NCBI GenBank assembly: GCA_018434245.1 | Contig: JAHDPQ010000141.1 | Span: 1-32,254 of the forward strand | Source: Oscillospiraceae bacterium | Lineage (GTDB): Bacteria; Bacillota; Clostridia; Oscillospirales; Ruminococcaceae | Length of the DNA stretch: 32,254 nt | Reading direction: 5' to 3' | Shown: positions 21,554 through 29,231 of the stretch, piece after piece | Numbering within the stretch: the stretch's first letter is position 1 | Layout: each line of letters opens with the position of its first letter | The notes under the pieces: generated by a model | Told to the model about the DNA's origin: nothing | The model's input: only the letters and a program-made list of their open reading frames with translations | Database searches by the model: none | Translations under genes and position numbers: made by a program

Positions 21554-22837
21554 TTAGAAGGGTTTGGACCAAAGGCCCAGTGCAGGGTTGCTGATATAAA
21601 AGATTTCCTCCCCGTCAGGCAGGGTGTTGTAGCCGTCCTTGAGCTGGGTGGGGTCATAGCGCTTGGTAGCATCCTCGTAAGGCATATAGTGGAAAGCCGC
21701 CCCCTCCACCTCTTCCTGGGTCAGGTGGGCAGTGGCATAAGTGATGGAAAAGCGCCCGTCAGAAGAACCGTGGATCAGGTGAGCCGCCACACTCTGGTTG
21801 GTTTGGAGATCCTCTTCCTTGCCAAACAGCTCGATGACGTTTTCCCGTCCCACATAGCCATATTTGCGGATCAGACGGTCATTTTCGGCATCCTCTCCAA
21901 ACTTGCGCACACCGGGAGCCAGAATGATCAGCTCGCCGTCCTGCGCCATGGCCATGCGGGTGCGGTAGATGGCCTTGTTCCCCAGCCAGGTGCTCTTAAA
22001 CTCGGCGGGATCCAGATACACCACACATTTTTTGAAGGGCTGATCCACAAAGATCAGGTTTTTTTCCTTGGCCAGAGCACAGGCTTCCTCGTAAGGAGCG
22101 CGGGTGGTTCCGGCAAAGAGGCCGTGAATGGCCACACCCTCGGGAGTGTTGGTGGTGACGGTGAGGATGTAGACGATGGGCAGCTTGGAGAGGAAGTGCT
22201 CCTGAGCGTAGTCAAACACCTTGCGGACAGGGGTGTCGATCCGGCCCATCATTCGCTCCATGCCGTACATGGCCCCCAGCATATGGCTCTGGTTGATGAT
22301 GTTGTTGCCGCCAACGCCCACCAGAATGTTCTTGGAGTAGTTGGCCATGCCCACCACTTCGTGGGGGGCAACCTGTCCCAGAGAGAAGATGGCTTTGTAT
22401 TCGGGTTTGAGAAGCTCCCGGTTGACTTCAATGAAGATATCCTCGTCCATTAGGCCCTCGGATACCTCTTTGACAAAGGAGGCAGGCACTTCCCCGATTT
22501 TTTCCACGCCGTTTTTCCAGTCGTGAATCAGGTAGGCATCGTCGGGGATGCTATCGCCAAAGAAGGCAAGCTTCTCCTCCTTGCTCATGGGATCGTGAGT
22601 GCCCAAAGCAGGCATCACCTTAACCTGAGCGGCGGGGGTGCGCTCCCCAACCAGAGCGTACATCTCCCGGGCCAGTACATTGGCGCCGGAATGAAGCCGG
22701 GTCATATCGGGAGGCAGCAGCAGGGTGTCGCCCCCCTCGCCGCAGGCATCCAGAACCTGAGCCAGAAACCCGCGAATCTCGCCGATTTCCAACCCCCTTC
22801 CCTGAGGTGCCAGCAATTTGAGTTCGAAAGCTTTCAT
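21554..22837 (-). CDS. LarA-superfamily nickel-pincer racemase/epimerase (DUF2088)
   Basis: A 427-residue protein homologous to lactate racemase LarA. The residues known from L. plantarum LarA are all present with matching spacing: R47 (PDMTR), H81 (GTHDP), H159 (PHEVVG), K169 (YSKN, the lysine that tethers the nickel-pincer nucleotide) and H185 (NQSH, a nickel ligand). H159-K169-H185 has the same 10 and 16 residue intervals as in LarA. The superfamily includes malate and hydroxyglutarate racemases and gluconate 2-epimerases. The neighbours here (mannonate oxidoreductase-like SDR, KDG-type kinase, gnd) favour a sugar-acid C2 epimerase over lactate racemase. AAGGAG precedes the ATG by eight bases. 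The cofactor genes larB, larC and larE are not in the window. Confidence 0.85.
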   Translation of the reverse strand: MKAFELKLLAPQGRGLEIGEIRGFLAQVLDACGEGGDTLLLPPDMTRLHSGANVLAREMYALVGERTPAAQVKVMPALGTHDPMSKEEKLAFFGDSIPDDAYLIHDWKNGVEKIGEVPASFVKEVSEGLMDEDIFIEVNRELLKPEYKAIFSLGQVAPHEVVGMANYSKNILVGVGGNNIINQSHMLGAMYGMERMMGRIDTPVRKVFDYAQEHFLSKLPIVYILTVTTNTPEGVAIHGLFAGTTRAPYEEACALAKEKNLIFVDQPFKKCVVYLDPAEFKSTWLGNKAIYRTRMAMAQDGELIILAPGVRKFGEDAENDRLIRKYGYVGRENVIELFGKEEDLQTNQSVAAHLIHGSSDGRFSITYATAHLTQEEVEGAAFHYMPYEDATKRYDPTQLKDGYNTLPDGEEIFYISNPALGLWSKPF

Positions 22838-23073
22838 GCTGTTTCTCCTTACTGATAATGTGTTTCATGGGACAAAACGTCAGAGTAGTGCAAGGTTTTG
22901 CGCCAAACGAGACAACCCCCGCACTACTGCAAATCACCATGCTGTTTTGTCTCTTGGCGGGAAATAGAGGGGCTGCCCCCCGACGTATTCTGCCGGAAAG
23001 CAGCAAGTACCTCTTGCAGGACCTCTCTCTCCAAAGGCTCACGGCCTTCGGAGAGGAGACGCTGCCTATGATG
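22838..23073 (-). other. Hairpin-containing spacer between gnd and the LarA-family gene
   Basis: These 236 bases hold no supported gene. Two strong inverted repeats lie on the minus strand: CTCTCCGAAGGC / GCCTTTGGAGAG (23055-23027), 18 bases after the gnd stop, and AGTAGTGC / GCACTACT with inner GGTT / AACC (22928-22884) upstream of the LarA-family ribosome site. Neither has a T-run. I find no clear promoter, so readthrough from gnd with RNA processing or attenuation is possible. Confidence 0.5.
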
Positions 23074-24528
23074 TTATACCGAGTAGGTGGAGGCGGAGGT
23101 AGTGCCGCCCTTACCGGTCCAATTGACATGGAAGAACTCGCCGCGGGGGTGACCCAGCTTCTCAAAGGTGTGGGCACCAAAGTAGTCCCGCTGCGCCTGC
23201 AGCAGGTTGGCAGGCAGGCGATCGGTAAAGTAGCCGTCAAAGTAAGCCAGAGCAGAGCTCATGGCGGGCACGGCCACTGCGCTGGAAATACCCAGAGTGA
23301 CAATCCGGCGCCAAGCTTCCTGACCCTGATCCAGAACATCCTTAAAGTAAGGAGCCAGCATCAGGTTGGCCAGATTGGGATCAGCCTCAAAGCTCTTCTT
23401 GATCTCGTTGAGGAAGGCGCTGCGGATGATGCAGCCGCCTCTCCAGATCATAGCGATGCCGCCCATATCCAGAGTCCAGCCAAAGGTTTCGGCAGCAGTG
23501 GCCATCAGGGAGTAGCCCTGAGCATAGCTGACCACCTTGGAGCAGAACAGAGCCTCTTCCAGATCCTTGAGGACGGCGGCCCGGTCAATCTTGACATCCA
23601 GCTTCTTTTTCTGGAGCTGTTTGGCAGCGGCCACGCGCTGCTCCTTGAGAGCGCTCAGGCAGCGGCTAAACACGGCTTCACTGATCAGGGTCAGGGCAAC
23701 ACCCTCGTCCAGAGCGGACTGGCTGGTCCACTTGCCGGTGCCCTTTTGGCCGGCGGTGTCCAGAATCTCGTCCACCACATAGTTGCCCTTCTCATCCTTG
23801 TAGCCCATGATGTCCCGTGTAATCTCGATGAGGTAACTGTCCAGACGGCCTTCGTTCCACTCGGCAAAGGTCTTGTGGATTTCGTCGTTGGTCATGCCGA
23901 GAACGTCCTTCATCACGGCATAGGCTTCGCAGATCAGCTGCATGTCGCCGTATTCGATGCCGTTGTGAACCATCTTGACAAAGTGGCCTGCGCCGTCCTT
24001 GCCGATCCAGATGCAGCAGGGAGACTGGTCCTCCCCCGCCTTGGCGGAGATGGCGGTGAAGATATCCTTGACATGAGGCCAGGCAGCTTCGGAGCCGCCG
24101 GGCATGATGGCAGGGCCGTTGAGAGCGCCTTCTTCGCCGCCGGAAACCCCGGTGCCGATGTACAGCAGGCCCTTGCTCTCCACATACTGAGCACGGCGGA
24201 TGGTGTCGGGGAAGTGGGAGTTGCCGCCGTCGATGATGATGTCGCCCTCTTCCAGATGGGGAATCAGTTGCTCGATGGTGGCGTCCACCGGTTTACCGGC
24301 CTTTACCATAATCATAATGCGGCGGGGTTTTTTCAGGGAGTTCACAAAGTCTTCTACGTTAAGGGCACCGATGATGTTCTTGCCCTTGGCGCGACCTTCT
24401 ACAAAGTTGGTCACCTTTTCGGTGGTACGGTTGTAGACAGCAACGGTAAAGCCCTTGCTCTCCATATTCATAACCAGGTTTTCGCCCATGACTGCCAGGC
24501 CAACCAGACCGATATCAGCTTTGCTCAT
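23074..24528 (-). CDS. gnd: 6-phosphogluconate dehydrogenase, decarboxylating
   Basis: A 484-residue enzyme of the oxidative pentose phosphate pathway that converts 6-phosphogluconate and NADP to ribulose 5-phosphate, CO2 and NADPH. The Rossmann start GLVGLAVMGENL has the GxAxMG fingerprint. The substrate motifs IIDGGNSHFPDT, GVSGGEEGALNGPAIMPGG, KMVHNGIEYGDMQLI (catalytic Lys) and GTGKWTSQSALD are all intact, and the C-terminal tail has DYFGAHTF. This is the long form, as in E. coli. The ATG at 24528 has AGGAGG ten bases upstream. It sits between the PfkB kinase and the LarA homologue, which suggests 6-phosphogluconate is made by the neighbouring pathway. Confidence 0.97.
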   Translation of the reverse strand: MSKADIGLVGLAVMGENLVMNMESKGFTVAVYNRTTEKVTNFVEGRAKGKNIIGALNVEDFVNSLKKPRRIMIMVKAGKPVDATIEQLIPHLEEGDIIIDGGNSHFPDTIRRAQYVESKGLLYIGTGVSGGEEGALNGPAIMPGGSEAAWPHVKDIFTAISAKAGEDQSPCCIWIGKDGAGHFVKMVHNGIEYGDMQLICEAYAVMKDVLGMTNDEIHKTFAEWNEGRLDSYLIEITRDIMGYKDEKGNYVVDEILDTAGQKGTGKWTSQSALDEGVALTLISEAVFSRCLSALKEQRVAAAKQLQKKKLDVKIDRAAVLKDLEEALFCSKVVSYAQGYSLMATAAETFGWTLDMGGIAMIWRGGCIIRSAFLNEIKKSFEADPNLANLMLAPYFKDVLDQGQEAWRRIVTLGISSAVAVPAMSSALAYFDGYFTDRLPANLLQAQRDYFGAHTFEKLGHPRGEFFHVNWTGKGGTTSASTYSV

Positions 24529-24680
24529 AAATTATATCCTCCTATTGTTTTTTTCAATTGCAAGTAATTTCATCCAATCAATTGATGAAGGTGCCAGGAG
24601 ATTCTCAGCGGTGCGAAGGGGCAGCCCTGCTGCGCCCTTCCGCTGATGGAGCATTTTTGAGCCTTATTGGAACGGAAGCG
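24529..24680 (-). other. Spacer between the PfkB kinase and gnd with a long hairpin
   Basis: Inverted repeat on the minus strand: CAGCGG-a-AGGG ... CCTT-cgca-CCGCTG, with an inner GCAG / CTGC (roughly 24645-24605). There is no T-run after it and no good promoter between it and gnd, so it looks like an intercistronic hairpin rather than a firm operon end. Confidence 0.4.
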
Positions 24681-25754
24681 TTACCGCTGCACCCGGGCAT
24701 TACCCTTGTAGATATCCCAAACCTGAGCCTCGTCGGCGGGCTGGGCGTGGTCGGTGAGCATGGTGGTGGCAAGAGCACCGGTGGCCCAGGCAAACTGCAA
24801 CCATTTTTCCGGCTCCCACTCCTTGAGGATGCCGTACAGAAGTCCGCCTACAAAGCCGTCGCCGCCGCCAATCCGGTCCAGAATGGGAATTTCCCGAGGC
24901 TCTACCACATGCCAGTTGTCCCCTTCCAGCATGATGGCACCCCACAGGTGCTCGTTGGCGGAAAATACCTGACGCAGGGTGTTGGCAAAGACACTGGTGT
25001 TGGGATACTGCTTCTTCACCCGCTCAATCATGCCCTTAAAGCCGTCGATTTTGGAGGTCAAGTCCTTGCCACCAGCCTCGGGACCCTGAATGCGCAGGCA
25101 GAGCTGGAAGTCCTCCTCGTTGCCCTCCAGAATATCGGCAAGGGAAGCGATTTCGGAAAAGCTCTGGTGGAGCTCCTCTTCCCGGCCTTTCCAGAAGGTG
25201 GCACGATGGTTGAGGTCAAAGCTAATAAGAGTGCCGTGTTTTTTGGCAGCTCTGGCTAGCTCCAGGCAGAACTGGGTGGTCTCAGGAGAAAGGGCGGCAA
25301 TGAGTCCGCTCATGTGGAGAACCTGAACTCCTTCTTCCCCAAAGATGCGCTCCAGATCAAAATCCTTGACGTTAAGGGTGCGGCCCACTTCACCGGCCCG
25401 GTCGTTCCAGACTCTGGGGCCCCGCATGCCAAAGCCGCTGTCGGCAATGTTGAACTGGTGGCGGTAGCCCCAAGGGCCGCCCTGATCCACCTCAGGTCCT
25501 TCGATTTCCATCCCCCGGGAGCGGAGATCCTGCTTGATAAAGGCCGCCATGGGGCTGCCCTTTACAAAGGTGGTGAGCACTTTGACGGGAAGTCCCAGAT
25601 AGGAGGAAATGCTGGCTACATTGGCCTCTGCACTGGTTGCCTGAAGTAAAAACTGGTTGGAAGCAGCCACCGGCTGACGGGTGTGAGGGGTAATTCGAAG
25701 GCCCATGCTGGCCGGAACCATTAATGCGTATTTTGCATCCTTGCGAAGCTTCAT
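24681..25754 (-). CDS. PfkB-family sugar kinase, 2-keto-3-deoxygluconate kinase type
   Basis: A 357-residue cytoplasmic kinase of the ribokinase/PfkB family. The N-terminal TSAEANVASISSYLGLPV matches the family GGxxxNxA region, ISFDLNHRATFW matches the DxNxR motif of 2-keto-3-deoxygluconate kinases, and IGGGDGFVGGLLYG is the C-terminal anion-hole motif with catalytic D299. The best family match is KDG kinase, but a PfkB enzyme phosphorylating gluconate or mannonate cannot be excluded, and no KDPG aldolase or mannonate dehydratase gene is here. AGGAGG lies ten bases before the ATG. It follows the SDR by 43 bases in the LacI-controlled operon. Confidence 0.85.
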   Translation of the reverse strand: MKLRKDAKYALMVPASMGLRITPHTRQPVAASNQFLLQATSAEANVASISSYLGLPVKVLTTFVKGSPMAAFIKQDLRSRGMEIEGPEVDQGGPWGYRHQFNIADSGFGMRGPRVWNDRAGEVGRTLNVKDFDLERIFGEEGVQVLHMSGLIAALSPETTQFCLELARAAKKHGTLISFDLNHRATFWKGREEELHQSFSEIASLADILEGNEEDFQLCLRIQGPEAGGKDLTSKIDGFKGMIERVKKQYPNTSVFANTLRQVFSANEHLWGAIMLEGDNWHVVEPREIPILDRIGGGDGFVGGLLYGILKEWEPEKWLQFAWATGALATTMLTDHAQPADEAQVWDIYKGNARVQR

Positions 25755-25797
25755 CGTATATACCTCCTGTTAATAATATTCTGTTAGAACTGTCCGG

Positions 25798-26646
25798 TTA
25801 TACGCCGGAGTAAGCAGAAAATCCGCCGTCAATGGGGATGACCACGCCGGTGATAAATCCGGACATGCTTTCATCCAGCAAGAAGAGCATGGTGCCCAGC
25901 AACTCCTCGGGTACACCAAAGCGGCCCATGGGAGTGTTGCGCAGAATCTTTTCGGAGCGGGCCGTGTAGCTGCCGTCCTCGTTGGTGAGGAGAGCGCGGT
26001 TCTGATCGGTCAGGAAAAAGCCGGGTGCCAAAGCGTTGACCCGGATGTTGGTTTTGGAAAAGTGCACAGCCAGCCACTGGGTAAAGTTGGAGATGGCTGC
26101 CTTGGCCGCCGAATAGGCGGGAATCTTGGTGAGAGGGGTAAAGGCGTTCATCGAGCTGATGTTGAGGATGGAACCGCCTTTTTCGATCAGGTCCCGGCTG
26201 AACTCCTGGGTAGGCAGCAGGGTTCCCATAAAGTTGAGGTCAAATACAAAGCGGACACTGTCGGCATCCATGTTGTAAAAGGTCTTAAAGCCTTCCTTAT
26301 CCAGATCGCTGGGGGAGAAAAACTCGCCGTCGGTGGTGCCTTTGGGATGGTTTCCGCCGGCTCCGTTGATGAGGATATCGATGGGTCCAAAGGCTTCCTT
26401 TACCTTTTGGTGAGCCTTGCGGATGCTCTCTACCTCCAGCACGTTGCACTTGACACCAATAGCCTGTCCTCCCGCAGCGGTGATCTCGTCCGCCACCTTT
26501 TGAGCCGCCTGCTCGTTGAGGTCCAGCACCGCTACCTTAACGCCATATTCACCCAGCGCCTTGGCCATGCTGCCGCACAGAATGCCGCCGCCACCGGTAA
26601 CGACTGCGACTTTTCCGCCTAAATTCTTCTCCATAGAAATGATCAT
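25798..26646 (-). CDS. SDR oxidoreductase resembling D-mannonate oxidoreductase (UxuB, SDR type)
   Basis: A 282-residue NAD(P)-dependent short-chain dehydrogenase. The cofactor motif is TGGGGILCGSMA, followed by NGAGGNHPKGTT, a sequence characteristic of clostridial and bacillar mannonate oxidoreductases (fructuronate to D-mannonate) rather than generic SDRs. Ser164/165 (NISSMN), Tyr178 and Lys182 (YSAAK) form the catalytic set. AAGGAGTG lies about nine bases before the ATG at 26646. It is the first gene of the minus-strand sugar-acid operon, transcribed from a promoter whose start site is covered by a LacI-type operator. Gluconate 5-dehydrogenase is the main alternative assignment. Confidence 0.85.
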   Translation of the reverse strand: MIISMEKNLGGKVAVVTGGGGILCGSMAKALGEYGVKVAVLDLNEQAAQKVADEITAAGGQAIGVKCNVLEVESIRKAHQKVKEAFGPIDILINGAGGNHPKGTTDGEFFSPSDLDKEGFKTFYNMDADSVRFVFDLNFMGTLLPTQEFSRDLIEKGGSILNISSMNAFTPLTKIPAYSAAKAAISNFTQWLAVHFSKTNIRVNALAPGFFLTDQNRALLTNEDGSYTARSEKILRNTPMGRFGVPEELLGTMLFLLDESMSGFITGVVIPIDGGFSAYSGV

Positions 26647-26694: not shown

Positions 26695-26710
26695 CATGTA
26701 AGCCCTTACA
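26695..26710. promoter_or_regulatory. LacI-type operator O1 at the SDR promoter
   Basis: Perfect palindrome TGTAAGCCCTTACA (26697-26710), extended by CA at the left. It lies eight bases downstream of the SDR -10 and covers the predicted transcription start. The same sequence in reverse orientation is found at 26822. Confidence 0.85.
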
Positions 26711-26717
26711 ATTTATC

Positions 26718-26746
26718 ATTTTACACTGATATCTCTCAATTGTCAA
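26718..26746 (-). promoter_or_regulatory. Promoter of the SDR-kinase operon
   Basis: On the minus strand: TTGACA (26746-26741), a 17-base spacer, TAAAAT (26723-26718). Operator O1 follows at once. Confidence 0.85.
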
Positions 26747-26793: not shown

Positions 26794-26822
26794 TTGAAAA
26801 TCATAATTTCACAGGTTATAAT
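26794..26822 (+). promoter_or_regulatory. Promoter of the LacI-family regulator gene
   Basis: TTGAAA (26794-26799), a 17-base spacer, TATAAT (26817-26822). The last base of the -10 is the first base of operator O2. Confidence 0.85.
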
Positions 26823-26837
26823 GTAAGGGCTTACATG
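26822..26837. promoter_or_regulatory. LacI-type operator O2 at the regulator's own promoter
   Basis: Perfect palindrome TGTAAGGGCTTACA (26822-26835) extended by TG. It is the exact reverse complement of O1 over 16 bases, and the centres are 125 bp apart. Confidence 0.85.
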
Positions 26838-27012
26838 CTTTTTGACAATTAAGGCCCATCCACCGGCATCGATCAGGGCTTGTCTTTGCCCCTGCAGATA
26901 TGGTACTATCTGCTTTGAAGTGGGGATGATGCCGGATGGCCCGGCCTGCTGTGGTACAAGGTTTGTTGCGGCAGCGCTAACATTGGGCATCCATCCCAAA
27001 AGGGGGATCTTT

Positions 27013-28002
27013 TTGAATATCTACGATATTGCAAAGCTGGCAGGAGTCAGTATCGCCACTGTCTCCCGAGTGATTAACGGCAAGGAAAACGTCTCCGAAA
27101 AGACCCGCCAAAAGGTGGAAGGCGTCATTTCGGAAATGGGGTATACTCCCAACGTCTTTGCCAGAGGTTTGGGACTGGGCTCCATTCAGATGGTGGGGGT
27201 TCTCTGCTCCACCGTCAGCGATTTGTTCTACGCCCGGGCGGTTGCCACCATCGAAAGCGAGCTGCGCACATTGGGCTATGACGTGATTCTCTGCTGCACC
27301 GGCAACGATGTTGCGGAAAAAAGCCGGTACATGCAGCTCCTTCTTTCCAAGCGGGTGGACGCTATGATTCTGGTAGGTTCCATTTTTCAGGAGCGGACCA
27401 GCAACGAGCATATTGCTCAGGCCGCCACTCAGGTTCCGGTAATTCTGGTCAACGGCTCTTTAGATATTCCAAACACCTACTGTGTCTTTTGTGATGAAGA
27501 AGGCGCGGTCTATCATTTGGTGCGGGCTTTGGCAGCCGAAAATCGCCGGGAAATCCTCTACATCGAAAACACCGAAAACTACGCCAGTCTTTCCAAGTGG
27601 AGAGGCTTTACCCGGGGCTGTGCCGACTACAACATCTTCCACTCCCCCGCTCTCACCCTGCAGGTGCCCAAGGACGCCGACGCTGTCAAGGAGCGAGTGG
27701 GCAGGCTGGTCGATTCCGGGGTGACCTTCAATGCGGTGGTCGCCAGCGAGGACCTGCTGGCTCTGGGGGCTCTCAAGGCCCTGCAAAACCGCAATCTGCG
27801 GATACCGGAGGATGTGGCGGTGGTAGGGTTTAACGACTCCATCCTCTGCGAGTGCTCCTCCCCCGAGCTTTCCAGCGTGGACAACAAGGTAGACGATATG
27901 TGCCGCCGGGCGGTGGCCACCCTGTTGGAGCTGATTCGGGGGCGCAACCCTCCTACCCGGACCGTTCTCACCCCCGAGTTCAAACGCAGGGGAAGCTTCT
28001 GA
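27013..28002 (+). CDS. LacI-family transcriptional regulator
   Basis: A 329-residue DNA-binding repressor or activator. The N-terminal helix-turn-helix is NIYDIAKLAGVSIATVSRVING and the hinge helix region is TPNVFARGLGLG. The rest is a periplasmic-binding-protein-like sensor domain ending in FKRRGSF. The start is TTG 27013, with AGGGGG six to seven bases upstream; the frame is open to 26842, but the upstream residues do not look like a LacI N-terminus. It diverges from the SDR-kinase operon, and two copies of one palindrome at the two start sites mark it as the likely local regulator and autoregulator. The effector is probably a sugar acid, by context. Its leader of about 175 bases contains an imperfect hairpin (26855-26870 with 26926-26941). 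Confidence 0.93.
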   Translation: MNIYDIAKLAGVSIATVSRVINGKENVSEKTRQKVEGVISEMGYTPNVFARGLGLGSIQMVGVLCSTVSDLFYARAVATIESELRTLGYDVILCCTGNDVAEKSRYMQLLLSKRVDAMILVGSIFQERTSNEHIAQAATQVPVILVNGSLDIPNTYCVFCDEEGAVYHLVRALAAENRREILYIENTENYASLSKWRGFTRGCADYNIFHSPALTLQVPKDADAVKERVGRLVDSGVTFNAVVASEDLLALGALKALQNRNLRIPEDVAVVGFNDSILCECSSPELSSVDNKVDDMCRRAVATLLELIRGRNPPTRTVLTPEFKRRGSF

Positions 28003-28109: not shown

Positions 28110-29231
28110 TTACTGAGCATCCATATAAACGATGGGTTTGATCAGGTCGGGAGCTTTTTTATCCATTAGGTCAAAGGCGTCTTCCATTTTTTCAAAGCCG
28201 TTGAACTTGTGGGAGATAATCTTGGTGGTATCCAGACGGCCATGGCGGATCACTTCCAAAAGCTTTTGAATCCGAAGGGCACCGCCGGGGCAGAAGCCGC
28301 CGCGAATATCCTTGTTGGCCATTCCCAGTCCCCAGGACCAGGCAGGCATGGACAGCACGTGGGATAGGTCAAAGAAGTTGATATTGGATACAACGCCCAT
28401 CTCTTTGGTCATATCCACTGCCTGACGGAAGGTTTCGGCATCTCCACCGGCAATGATCACCTTGTCGGCCCCGCCGCCGGTCAAATCCTTGATCTGCTCG
28501 ACAATATCGCCCTCTTTGTAGCTGACAATATCGGTGGCGCCGTACTCCCGGGCAATTTTGACGCAGTTGGGGCGGGTTCCGATGCCGATGATCCGTCCGG
28601 CTCCCCGCAGCTGGGCTCCCGCCACAGCCATCAAGCCTACCGGCCCGATTCCAATGACTACAACGGTGTCGCCATATCCGATCTCTGCCAGCTCGGCGCC
28701 GTGGAATCCGGTGGACATCATATCCACAGTCATGAGGGCCGCTTCGGGAGATACGTCGTCAGGCATGTGGACCAGGTTGGCATCCGCCTGATTGACGTGG
28801 AAGTATTCGGCAAAAATGCCGTCCTTCTGGGACAAGAACTTAAAGCTTCCCATCATAAAATGGTCGTGAGCGGTGGACTTACCTGACTGCGTACCCATGG
28901 AAAGCCAGTCGGGCGTGACACAGGGAACCACAACCCGGTCACCAGGAGCAAACTTGGTCACCAGCTCGCCGACTTCTTCTACAATGCCTACGGCTTCGTG
29001 GCCAAGAATCAGGTCCTTCTTGGGTCCGGAGCCGCCGTGAGACACGTGGGTGTCCGAGCTGCAGGGAGCCACAATGGTGGGGCGTACAATGGCGTCCAGG
29101 GGCCCTGCCACAGGGCGAGTCTTTTCCAGCCAGCCGGTCTTGTTGACTTCCAGCATACCGTAACCCCGCATCATCACGGGAGGGGTTTCCTTTTTCTTTA
29201 ATCTAGTATCAAACGTTGTGCGTGTGCTCAT
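28110..29231 (-). CDS. Zinc-dependent secondary alcohol dehydrogenase (NADP isopropanol dehydrogenase type)
   Basis: A 373-residue medium-chain dehydrogenase closely resembling the Thermoanaerobacter brockii and Clostridium beijerinckii secondary alcohol dehydrogenases. Catalytic zinc ligands are C57, H78 and D170, with E79 beside H78 (GHEAVG). The Rossmann motif is VVIGIGPVGLMAVAG. The IGTRP segment corresponds to the GSRP loop that binds the NADP phosphate, which supports NADP(H) use. The N-terminus is about 19 residues longer than in those enzymes (MSTRTTFDTRLKKKETPPV). This start is favoured because AAGGAGGT lies about eight bases upstream, while the internal Met pair has no ribosome site. 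It diverges from a LysR gene that probably regulates it. The substrate is not certain. Confidence 0.92.
   Translation of the reverse strand: MSTRTTFDTRLKKKETPPVMMRGYGMLEVNKTGWLEKTRPVAGPLDAIVRPTIVAPCSSDTHVSHGGSGPKKDLILGHEAVGIVEEVGELVTKFAPGDRVVVPCVTPDWLSMGTQSGKSTAHDHFMMGSFKFLSQKDGIFAEYFHVNQADANLVHMPDDVSPEAALMTVDMMSTGFHGAELAEIGYGDTVVVIGIGPVGLMAVAGAQLRGAGRIIGIGTRPNCVKIAREYGATDIVSYKEGDIVEQIKDLTGGGADKVIIAGGDAETFRQAVDMTKEMGVVSNINFFDLSHVLSMPAWSWGLGMANKDIRGGFCPGGALRIQKLLEVIRHGRLDTTKIISHKFNGFEKMEDAFDLMDKKAPDLIKPIVYMDAQ

Follow-up and report, generated by a model that had tools for sequence, protein, structure and literature searches.

A predicted group 18 LarA hexonate epimerase in a candidate route from uronates to the pentose phosphate pathway in an Oscillospiraceae bacterium

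Where might the carbon of uronic acids go in a bacterium in which no mannonate dehydratase is found? The question is raised by four minus-strand genes that lie together in an Oscillospiraceae bacterium (GenBank assembly GCA_018434245.1, contig JAHDPQ010000141.1, positions 1 to 32,254; this whole stretch of 32,254 nucleotides is called the window here). Open reading frame (ORF) and family searches place the four genes at the coordinates given by a first-pass annotation (Table 1). They encode a homologue of the lactate racemase LarA that belongs to LarA group 18 (LarA18), a decarboxylating 6-phosphogluconate dehydrogenase (Gnd), a PfkB-family sugar-acid kinase and a short-chain dehydrogenase/reductase (SDR). 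Judged from their sequences, these genes would very probably take mannonate to ribulose 5-phosphate, in whichever order the kinase and the epimerase act. We think it likely that they form the lower part of a pathway for hexuronate catabolism, with all substrates predicted, that drains to the pentose phosphate pathway and not to the 2-keto-3-deoxygluconate (KDG)/Entner-Doudoroff branch.

In the proposed route, glucuronate would be isomerised to fructuronate by UxaC, and galacturonate would be turned into fructuronate by UxaC together with the epimerase UxaE. The SDR would reduce fructuronate to D-mannonate, and LarA18 would invert C2 of D-mannonate to give D-gluconate by reversible hydride transfer to the nickel-pincer nucleotide (NPN). 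The PfkB-family kinase would then convert D-gluconate to 6-phosphogluconate, from which Gnd would form ribulose 5-phosphate, CO2 and a reduced cofactor, offsetting the reduction step of the SDR. The epimerase probably acts before the kinase. The same sequence, from fructuronate through mannonate, gluconate and 6-phosphogluconate to ribulose 5-phosphate, had been put forward in the first-pass annotation, and it is now backed by the avoidance of uxuA across the order and by nine named loci that contain uxaC.

The distribution of these genes was followed in 147 genomes drawn from the order, with the draw unchanged from family to family, with LarA18 called at E <= 1e-60 to the window protein and the kinase at E <= 1e-100 to the window kinase. 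LarA18 was detected in 21 genomes, the window-type PfkB in 19, gnd in 27, zwf in four and uxaC in 87; over the model cut-offs, the mannonate dehydratase gene uxuA was detected in 73 and the 2-keto-3-deoxy-6-phosphogluconate (KDPG) aldolase family in 92. The gnd gene is present in 20 of the 21 LarA18 genomes versus 7 of the 126 others (Fisher p 7e-18), and the window-type PfkB in 17/21 versus 2/126 (p 1e-16). All 19 genomes with this kinase have gnd, and 17 of them have LarA18. Only one of the 21 LarA18 genomes encodes zwf; as zwf is nearly absent from them, the 6-phosphogluconate used by Gnd must have another source. Conversely, uxuA is over its cut-off in 1/21 LarA18 genomes versus 72/126 others. 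Within the 87 genomes that have uxaC, 14 carry LarA18 only, 64 uxuA only, one both and eight neither (p 8e-10). Counted by genus, uxuA against LarA18 gives 1/12 versus 37/42 (p 5e-7), with three genera (g5, g20 and g24) on both sides; these p-values ignore relatedness beyond genus. Switches between LarA18 and uxuA are seen within genera (G016 versus G057 in g20; G040 versus G075, G102 and G115 in g37). The sole LarA18 genome with uxuA over cut-off, G045, has neither gnd nor the PfkB kinase.

The genome to which the window belongs fits this distribution. The uxuA model (TIGR00695) has no match at E <= 0.001 in this 91% complete genome, so that the mannonate-dehydratase pathway was not found there, and the absence of uxuA from the window agrees with the first-pass annotation. 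No zwf match was found in the genome either, and gnd is its sole PF00393 match. Four KDPG aldolase-family genes and two copies of uxaC are present, both uxaC copies outside the window. Beside one copy (G000:C36:201-6617, L137) are a gene for a TctC-type transporter receptor, two genes that are likely partners, and a LacI-family gene that falls into one ORF cluster with the regulator in the window; this may possibly be a uronate uptake locus. The other copy (G000:C177:825-6909, L136) is flanked by two methyl-accepting chemotaxis genes, which perhaps serve chemotaxis towards uronates.

Gene neighbourhoods were compared in 80 named loci, the best 80 of 571 relatives and the nearest to the window. 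They belong mostly to uncultured Clostridia and Oscillospiraceae, many of them from goat, sheep, roe deer or yak gut according to database records. The gnd gene is found in 61 of these loci, PfkB in 40 (all with gnd), the SDR in 26 and uxaC in 14, and LarA18, gnd, PfkB, the SDR and uxaC stand together in nine. Each of the 40 kinases shares at least 60% identity with the window kinase. For the SDR, clustered at 30% identity, 25 of the 26 loci carry a protein at least 45% identical to that of the window. Another 20 LarA18 loci, from other genera of the order, contain gnd (14 loci), PfkB (nine) and the SDR (two) within the stretches examined. Together with the window these make 101 LarA18 loci, with at least three contigs in both sets (L027/L057, L035/L105 and L039/L129). 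UxaE (PF16257, the Thermotoga maritima-type tagaturonate epimerase) lies in the stretch in 10 of the 101 loci and in the same-strand run in seven, and L124 and L125 have the gene order UxaE, PfkB, gnd, SDR, LarA18. An SDR-PfkB-gnd-LarA18 set is also present in Sporobacter termitidis DSM 10068 (L106). At locus L055, from a sister species, the LarA protein is 91% identical to that of the window and the gene order is the same. The kinase and LarA18 are on separate contigs in 7 of the 17 order genomes that have both; two of these seven LarA18 contigs are shorter than 9 kb, so linkage there is possible.

Other genes recur beside LarA18. Several loci that have no PfkB (L040, L063, L073, L086, L090 and L096) hold a PFK-family gene, resembling pyrophosphate-dependent phosphofructokinase, and a HAD-type gene near gnd or LarA18. 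A gene for a PHP-domain phosphoesterase-like protein of about 286 amino acids is in the same-strand run of LarA18 in 16 of the 101 loci, often between LarA18 and gnd (L033, L038, L039, L061, L065-L068, L080, L081, L091, L093, L098 and others).

The assignment of the epimerase is drawn from its family, its residues and its structural relatives. The protein scores 599.8 bits on NF052594, "nickel-dependent putative hexonate epimerase" (cut-off 500), at most 59 bits on other LarA models, and 40.9 bits on the Lar_N domain (PF09861). Residues R47, H81, H159, K169 and H185, singled out in the first-pass annotation as cofactor-binding and catalytic, proved correctly identified: with D44 and K288 they align with the same residues in the three other LarA paralogues of the genome and are invariant in 101/101 group 18 rows. 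Their correspondence to D72, R75, H108, H174, K184, H200 and K298 of LarA (Lactobacillus plantarum numbers) was mapped through the paralogues, not through LarA itself. A loop with E and V or S and a W in helix 11 are given as features of LarA groups 18, 19 and 20 by Desguin et al. 2020 (PMC7583248), and the window protein keeps this hexonate signature as E160, V161 and W284. The same paper reports assays of groups 19 and 20 as D-gluconate 2-epimerases, names group 18 a "hexonate epimerase" by hypothesis only, and identifies the structure 4nar as GntE2 of T. maritima. The closest solved structure to the window protein is 4nar (132.9 bits; 163.6 bits by profile), and lactate racemase reaches 29.6 bits by profile. 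In set A1, which takes 19 of the 20 other order loci (L039, near-identical to L038, was left out), 20/20 LarA rows match NF052594 at E <= 1e-100, and none matches another family at that threshold. The protein thus falls in the hexonate group, far from both the lactate and the malate racemases with which the first-pass annotation had considered it might cluster, and we reject these two functions on family score, structure-profile distance and the uniform NF052594 matches of the A1 rows. Besides LarA18, the genome carries three further LarA paralogues, two of which score over cut-off as lactate racemases.

The kinase, in which the first-pass annotation saw the weakest link, had been described as KDG-type. 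This description holds at the level of the PfkB superfamily and fails below it, as the protein scores 90.3, 38.5 and 24 bits on the KDG kinase models NF041332, NF040938 and NF052444 (cut-offs 440, 400 and 400). Another PfkB kinase of the genome (L141, contig C48), 28% identical to the window kinase, adjoins a KDPG aldolase-family gene. On two models of bifunctional KDG kinases it reaches 240 and 153 bits, against 90 and 39 for the window kinase, and it is also below the cut-offs; the score test for KDG kinase is therefore weak, and L141 is itself a putative KDG kinase. The kinase half of NF041633, a model of an aldolase-kinase fusion, gives 577 bits for L141 and 160 bits for the window kinase. 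KDG kinases (PfkB; 2afb, 1v19) share with the window kinase the fold family and the catalytic GxGD motif. They differ from it at the substrate loop, where the GG of KDG kinases and of L141 corresponds to T40-S41, invariant in the window kinase subfamily (32 relatives), and in an inserted segment in which W95, R98, H99, Q100, F101 and N102 are invariant among the same relatives. The window kinase looks like a member of a PfkB subfamily separate from the KDG kinases, and a KDG kinase function was thought unlikely on the scores, the residue differences and the tracking of gnd. We infer that it is a gluconokinase, with mannonate kinase as the alternative.

No gluconokinase model matches the window kinase. 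The FGGY gluconokinase model TIGR01314 is not over its cut-off in any of the 147 order genomes, in a search that did not extend to the P-loop GntK model (TIGR01313); the window kinase itself is a PfkB protein. Weaker FGGY matches (E <= 1e-90) occur in 6/21 LarA18 genomes versus 32/126 others and show no association, and an FGGY gluconokinase as a hidden kinase of the route was rejected. An FGGY protein stands at the position of PfkB in three named loci (L059, L079 and L088), never together with PfkB. The genome of the window also encodes an FGGY kinase (G000:C10, L140:404-3599) whose best model is gluconokinase (196 bits, cut-off 648.6), so a second gluconokinase is possible there. This gene adjoins one from a 2-hydroxyacid-dehydrogenase cluster, and a KDPG aldolase-family gene is there as well.

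Table 1. Genes and regulatory features at the LarA18 locus of the window
Feature	Coordinates	Strand	Details
LarA group 18 homologue, predicted D-mannonate/D-gluconate (hexonate) 2-epimerase	21554..22837	-	427 aa; NF052594
gnd, decarboxylating 6-phosphogluconate dehydrogenase	23074..24528	-	484 aa; TIGR00873 745.3 bits (cut-off 426.7)
PfkB-family sugar-acid kinase, predicted gluconokinase (or mannonate kinase)	24681..25754	-	357 aa; PF00294 68.8 bits
SDR, predicted fructuronate reductase (D-mannonate oxidoreductase)	25798..26646	-	282 aa; NF006132 438 bits (cut-off 281)
Palindromic operator-like site TGTAAGCCCTTACA, just downstream of the SDR-side promoter-like site	26697..26710	.	kept in sister locus L055
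Promoter-like site of the SDR-PfkB-gnd-LarA18 genes, TTGACA-17-TAAAAT	26718..26746	-	11/12 consensus; consensus match only
Promoter-like site of the LacI-family gene, TTGAAA-17-TATAAT	26794..26822	+	11/12 consensus; consensus match only
Operator-like palindrome TGTAAGGGCTTACA, the second of the two, which meets the end of the -10 hexamer in the promoter-like site of the LacI-family gene	26822..26835	.	perfect palindrome
LacI-family regulator, divergent	27013..28002	+	PF00356 76.9 bits, PF13377 94.8 bits

The region between the SDR gene and the divergent LacI-family gene offers a candidate control system. The listed ORF of the regulator starts at 26842, and its start in Table 1 is placed by the position of the helix-turn-helix; the protein is under the cut-off on all 18 NCBIfam models listed. 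The exact pattern TGTAAGSSCTTACA occurs twice in the 3.11-Mb genome, both times in this intergenic region. Both palindromes are kept in L055, where the counterpart of the second is TGTAAGAGCTTACA, with a changed centre. Three sites in the genome have one mismatch: two fall within called ORFs, and the third lies upstream of uxaE on contig C178, at a distance of about 58 bases. The sole intergenic exact or one-mismatch site outside the cluster therefore precedes uxaE, and with no uxuA match in the genome, the shared operator in front of a uxuA-kdgA set that the first-pass annotation had envisaged did not appear. From these sites, the LacI-family protein would repress the operon and its own gene, and probably uxaE, in response to a putative effector. 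Beside the LacI-family gene, here and in L055, lies a zinc-type alcohol dehydrogenase gene (window 28110-29231, minus strand), which is under the curated cut-offs listed and possibly has a link to uronate or polyol use.

The order of the two middle steps could be the other way round, with the PfkB protein as a mannonate kinase and LarA18 as a 6-phosphomannonate 2-epimerase that yields 6-phosphogluconate; the genes and the end product would be the same. The missing gluconokinase match of the window kinase would suit this arrangement, and PMC6978723 reports both activities in Lactobacillus suebicus extracts, with no gluconate from mannonate and with the genes not known there. The assayed LarA relatives GntE1, GntE2 and LarAH15, however, use free D-mannonate according to PMC7583248 and PMC11770544, LarA18 is nearest to GntE2 among solved structures, and the FGGY protein that replaces the kinase in three named loci has gluconokinase as its best model in L088, below the cut-off. 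We consider phosphorylation before epimerisation rather unlikely. It is far less probable that LarA18 is a bystander or another hexonate enzyme, next to an SDR and a PfkB that are the fructuronate reductase and KDG kinase of the ordinary isomerase pathway. LarA18 avoids uxuA across the order and no uxuA match exists in the genome of the window, L141 has both the higher scores on KDG kinase models and the KDPG aldolase-family neighbour, the window-type PfkB tracks gnd in 19/19 genomes, and no KDPG aldolase-family match was found in 9 of the 21 LarA18 genomes, seven of which have PfkB. What speaks for the ordinary pathway is that, among solved structures, the kinase comes closest to 4gm6 (of unnamed function) and to the KDG kinase 2afb, that four KDPG aldolase-family genes are present in the genome, and that uxuA is near LarA18 in at least 3 of the 80 named loci (L113, L116 and L126). 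These three loci, the reversibility of the reaction and G045, which has LarA18 and uxuA and no gnd, would also fit an enzyme that runs from gluconate to mannonate and feeds the dehydratase route. With gnd in 20 of the 21 LarA18 genomes and uxuA not over cut-off in 20, this last reading is highly improbable overall, and has some plausibility only in a minority of genomes, of which G045 is one.

Epimerisation to gluconate followed by phosphorylation remains our preferred route, and several observations weigh against it. Two of the three loci with uxuA also have gnd and PfkB, so the exclusion between LarA18 and uxuA is not absolute; L113 and L126 also hold a mannitol-dehydrogenase-type gene. The LarA18 genomes G015 and G140 have weak uxuA matches under the cut-off (60 and 57 bits). 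PfkB is missing in 4 and uxaC in 6 of the 21 LarA18 genomes, and 19 of the 80 named loci have no gnd, in part from contig ends. The gluconokinase match of the FGGY kinase in L088 is far under its cut-off. A terminator-like stem between gnd and the LarA gene (window 22972-23004, minus strand) means that LarA18 may not be fully co-transcribed, perhaps being transcribed less than the other genes of the operon. The literature within reach, which leaves out most subscription papers and all supplements, reports no assay of a group 18 enzyme or of the window kinase subfamily, and no such assignment for group 18, for a hexonate/mannonate epimerase or for a PfkB gluconokinase. Finally, LarB and LarC are both absent over cut-off in 15 of the 21 LarA18 genomes (LarC is present in six and LarB in four), in a search of the order that did not include LarE.

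In the genome of the window, the search for LarB, LarC and LarE suggested by the first-pass annotation recovered all three. On contig C71 lie larE (60-851, 277.8 bits, cut-off 150), larB (1086-1709, 290.8 bits, cut-off 175) and larC (1762-2988, 477.4 bits, cut-off 22.1). They form one run (G000:C71:60-2988, L135:60-2988), and the four LarA-family genes of the genome are on other contigs. Across the 147 order genomes, LarC was detected in 49 and LarB in 42; every LarB genome also has LarC, and seven more have LarC only. The presence of LarA18 shows no association with LarB/LarC (6/21 versus 43/126, p 0.80), a comparison made without a canonical LarA control. The 15 LarA18 genomes that have neither gene are spread over 13 genera and eight families with a mean completeness of 95%. 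Genome incompleteness was rejected as the cause, since 10 of the 15 reach a completeness of 95% or more. The idea of a LarA18 subclade linked to LarB/LarC was likewise rejected, because the two states are mixed on the LarA18 tree, with six changes. Genus mates can differ in their LarB/LarC state (G112/G126 and G135/G081; G126 has LarC only), and no common partner gene replacing larBCE was found next to LarA18 in the 101 same-strand runs.

Given that LarB and LarC are mostly absent while the pocket has an invariant lysine, arginine and set of histidines, most carriers of LarA18 in the order keep an NPN pocket without two known makers of NPN. This raises the possibility, to which we give slightly less than even weight, that LarA18 works in many bacteria without the known LarB-LarE-LarC pathway, through salvage of NPN, an undescribed biosynthesis or another hydride-accepting cofactor in the same pocket. 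Genomes with larBCE and no larA are mentioned in PMC11796402; in the portions of the literature that could be consulted, we found no mention of the reverse case, larA without larBCE. If group 18 does run without LarB and LarC, there would be a second source of NPN or a different cofactor, and either would change a young cofactor field.

The proposed route gives a testable function to LarA group 18 and to a PfkB kinase subfamily. It suggests that a group of bacteria in which zwf and uxuA are both missing uses uronates via the pentose phosphate pathway; annotation based on uxuA alone would take these species to be unable to complete uronate breakdown.

Related systems are known. A route from mannonate through gluconate to 6-phosphogluconate was proposed for T. 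maritima by Rodionova et al. 2012, as related in PMC3750489, PMC6978723 and PMC7583248, and the GntE2 activity of that organism is shown in PMC7583248. The UxaR-regulated pectin/galacturonate locus of T. maritima, aldH-pelB-gnd-uxaRED-gntEK, likewise combines gnd, uxaE, a LarA-family gluconate 2-epimerase and a gluconate kinase, and has uxaD as well. It differs from the window in that its epimerase belongs to LarA group 20 and its regulator to the GntR family, whereas the window has a group 18 enzyme, a PfkB kinase and a LacI-family regulator; T. maritima has, in addition, retained a kdgA-kdgK-uxuB-uxuA operon, while the genome of the window gave no uxuA match. We take the T. maritima GntK to be an FGGY kinase, and the FGGY model has matches in T. 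maritima. GntE1, GntE2 and LarAH15 have the cofactor and catalytic residues, the E-V/S loop and the W signature in common with the window LarA, whose nearest structure is 4nar; unlike them, the window enzyme is of group 18, a group found in the order mostly in genomes without LarB and LarC. The galacturonate route of L. suebicus, as described in PMC6978723, similarly uses a kinase and a 2-epimerase to turn mannonate into 6-phosphogluconate, which then passes to 6-phosphogluconate dehydrogenase, with phosphorylation before epimerisation, unlike the order preferred here. The route is not new in principle; what is new here is its assembly from another LarA group, another kinase family and another regulator, in bacteria that mostly have neither uxuA nor zwf.

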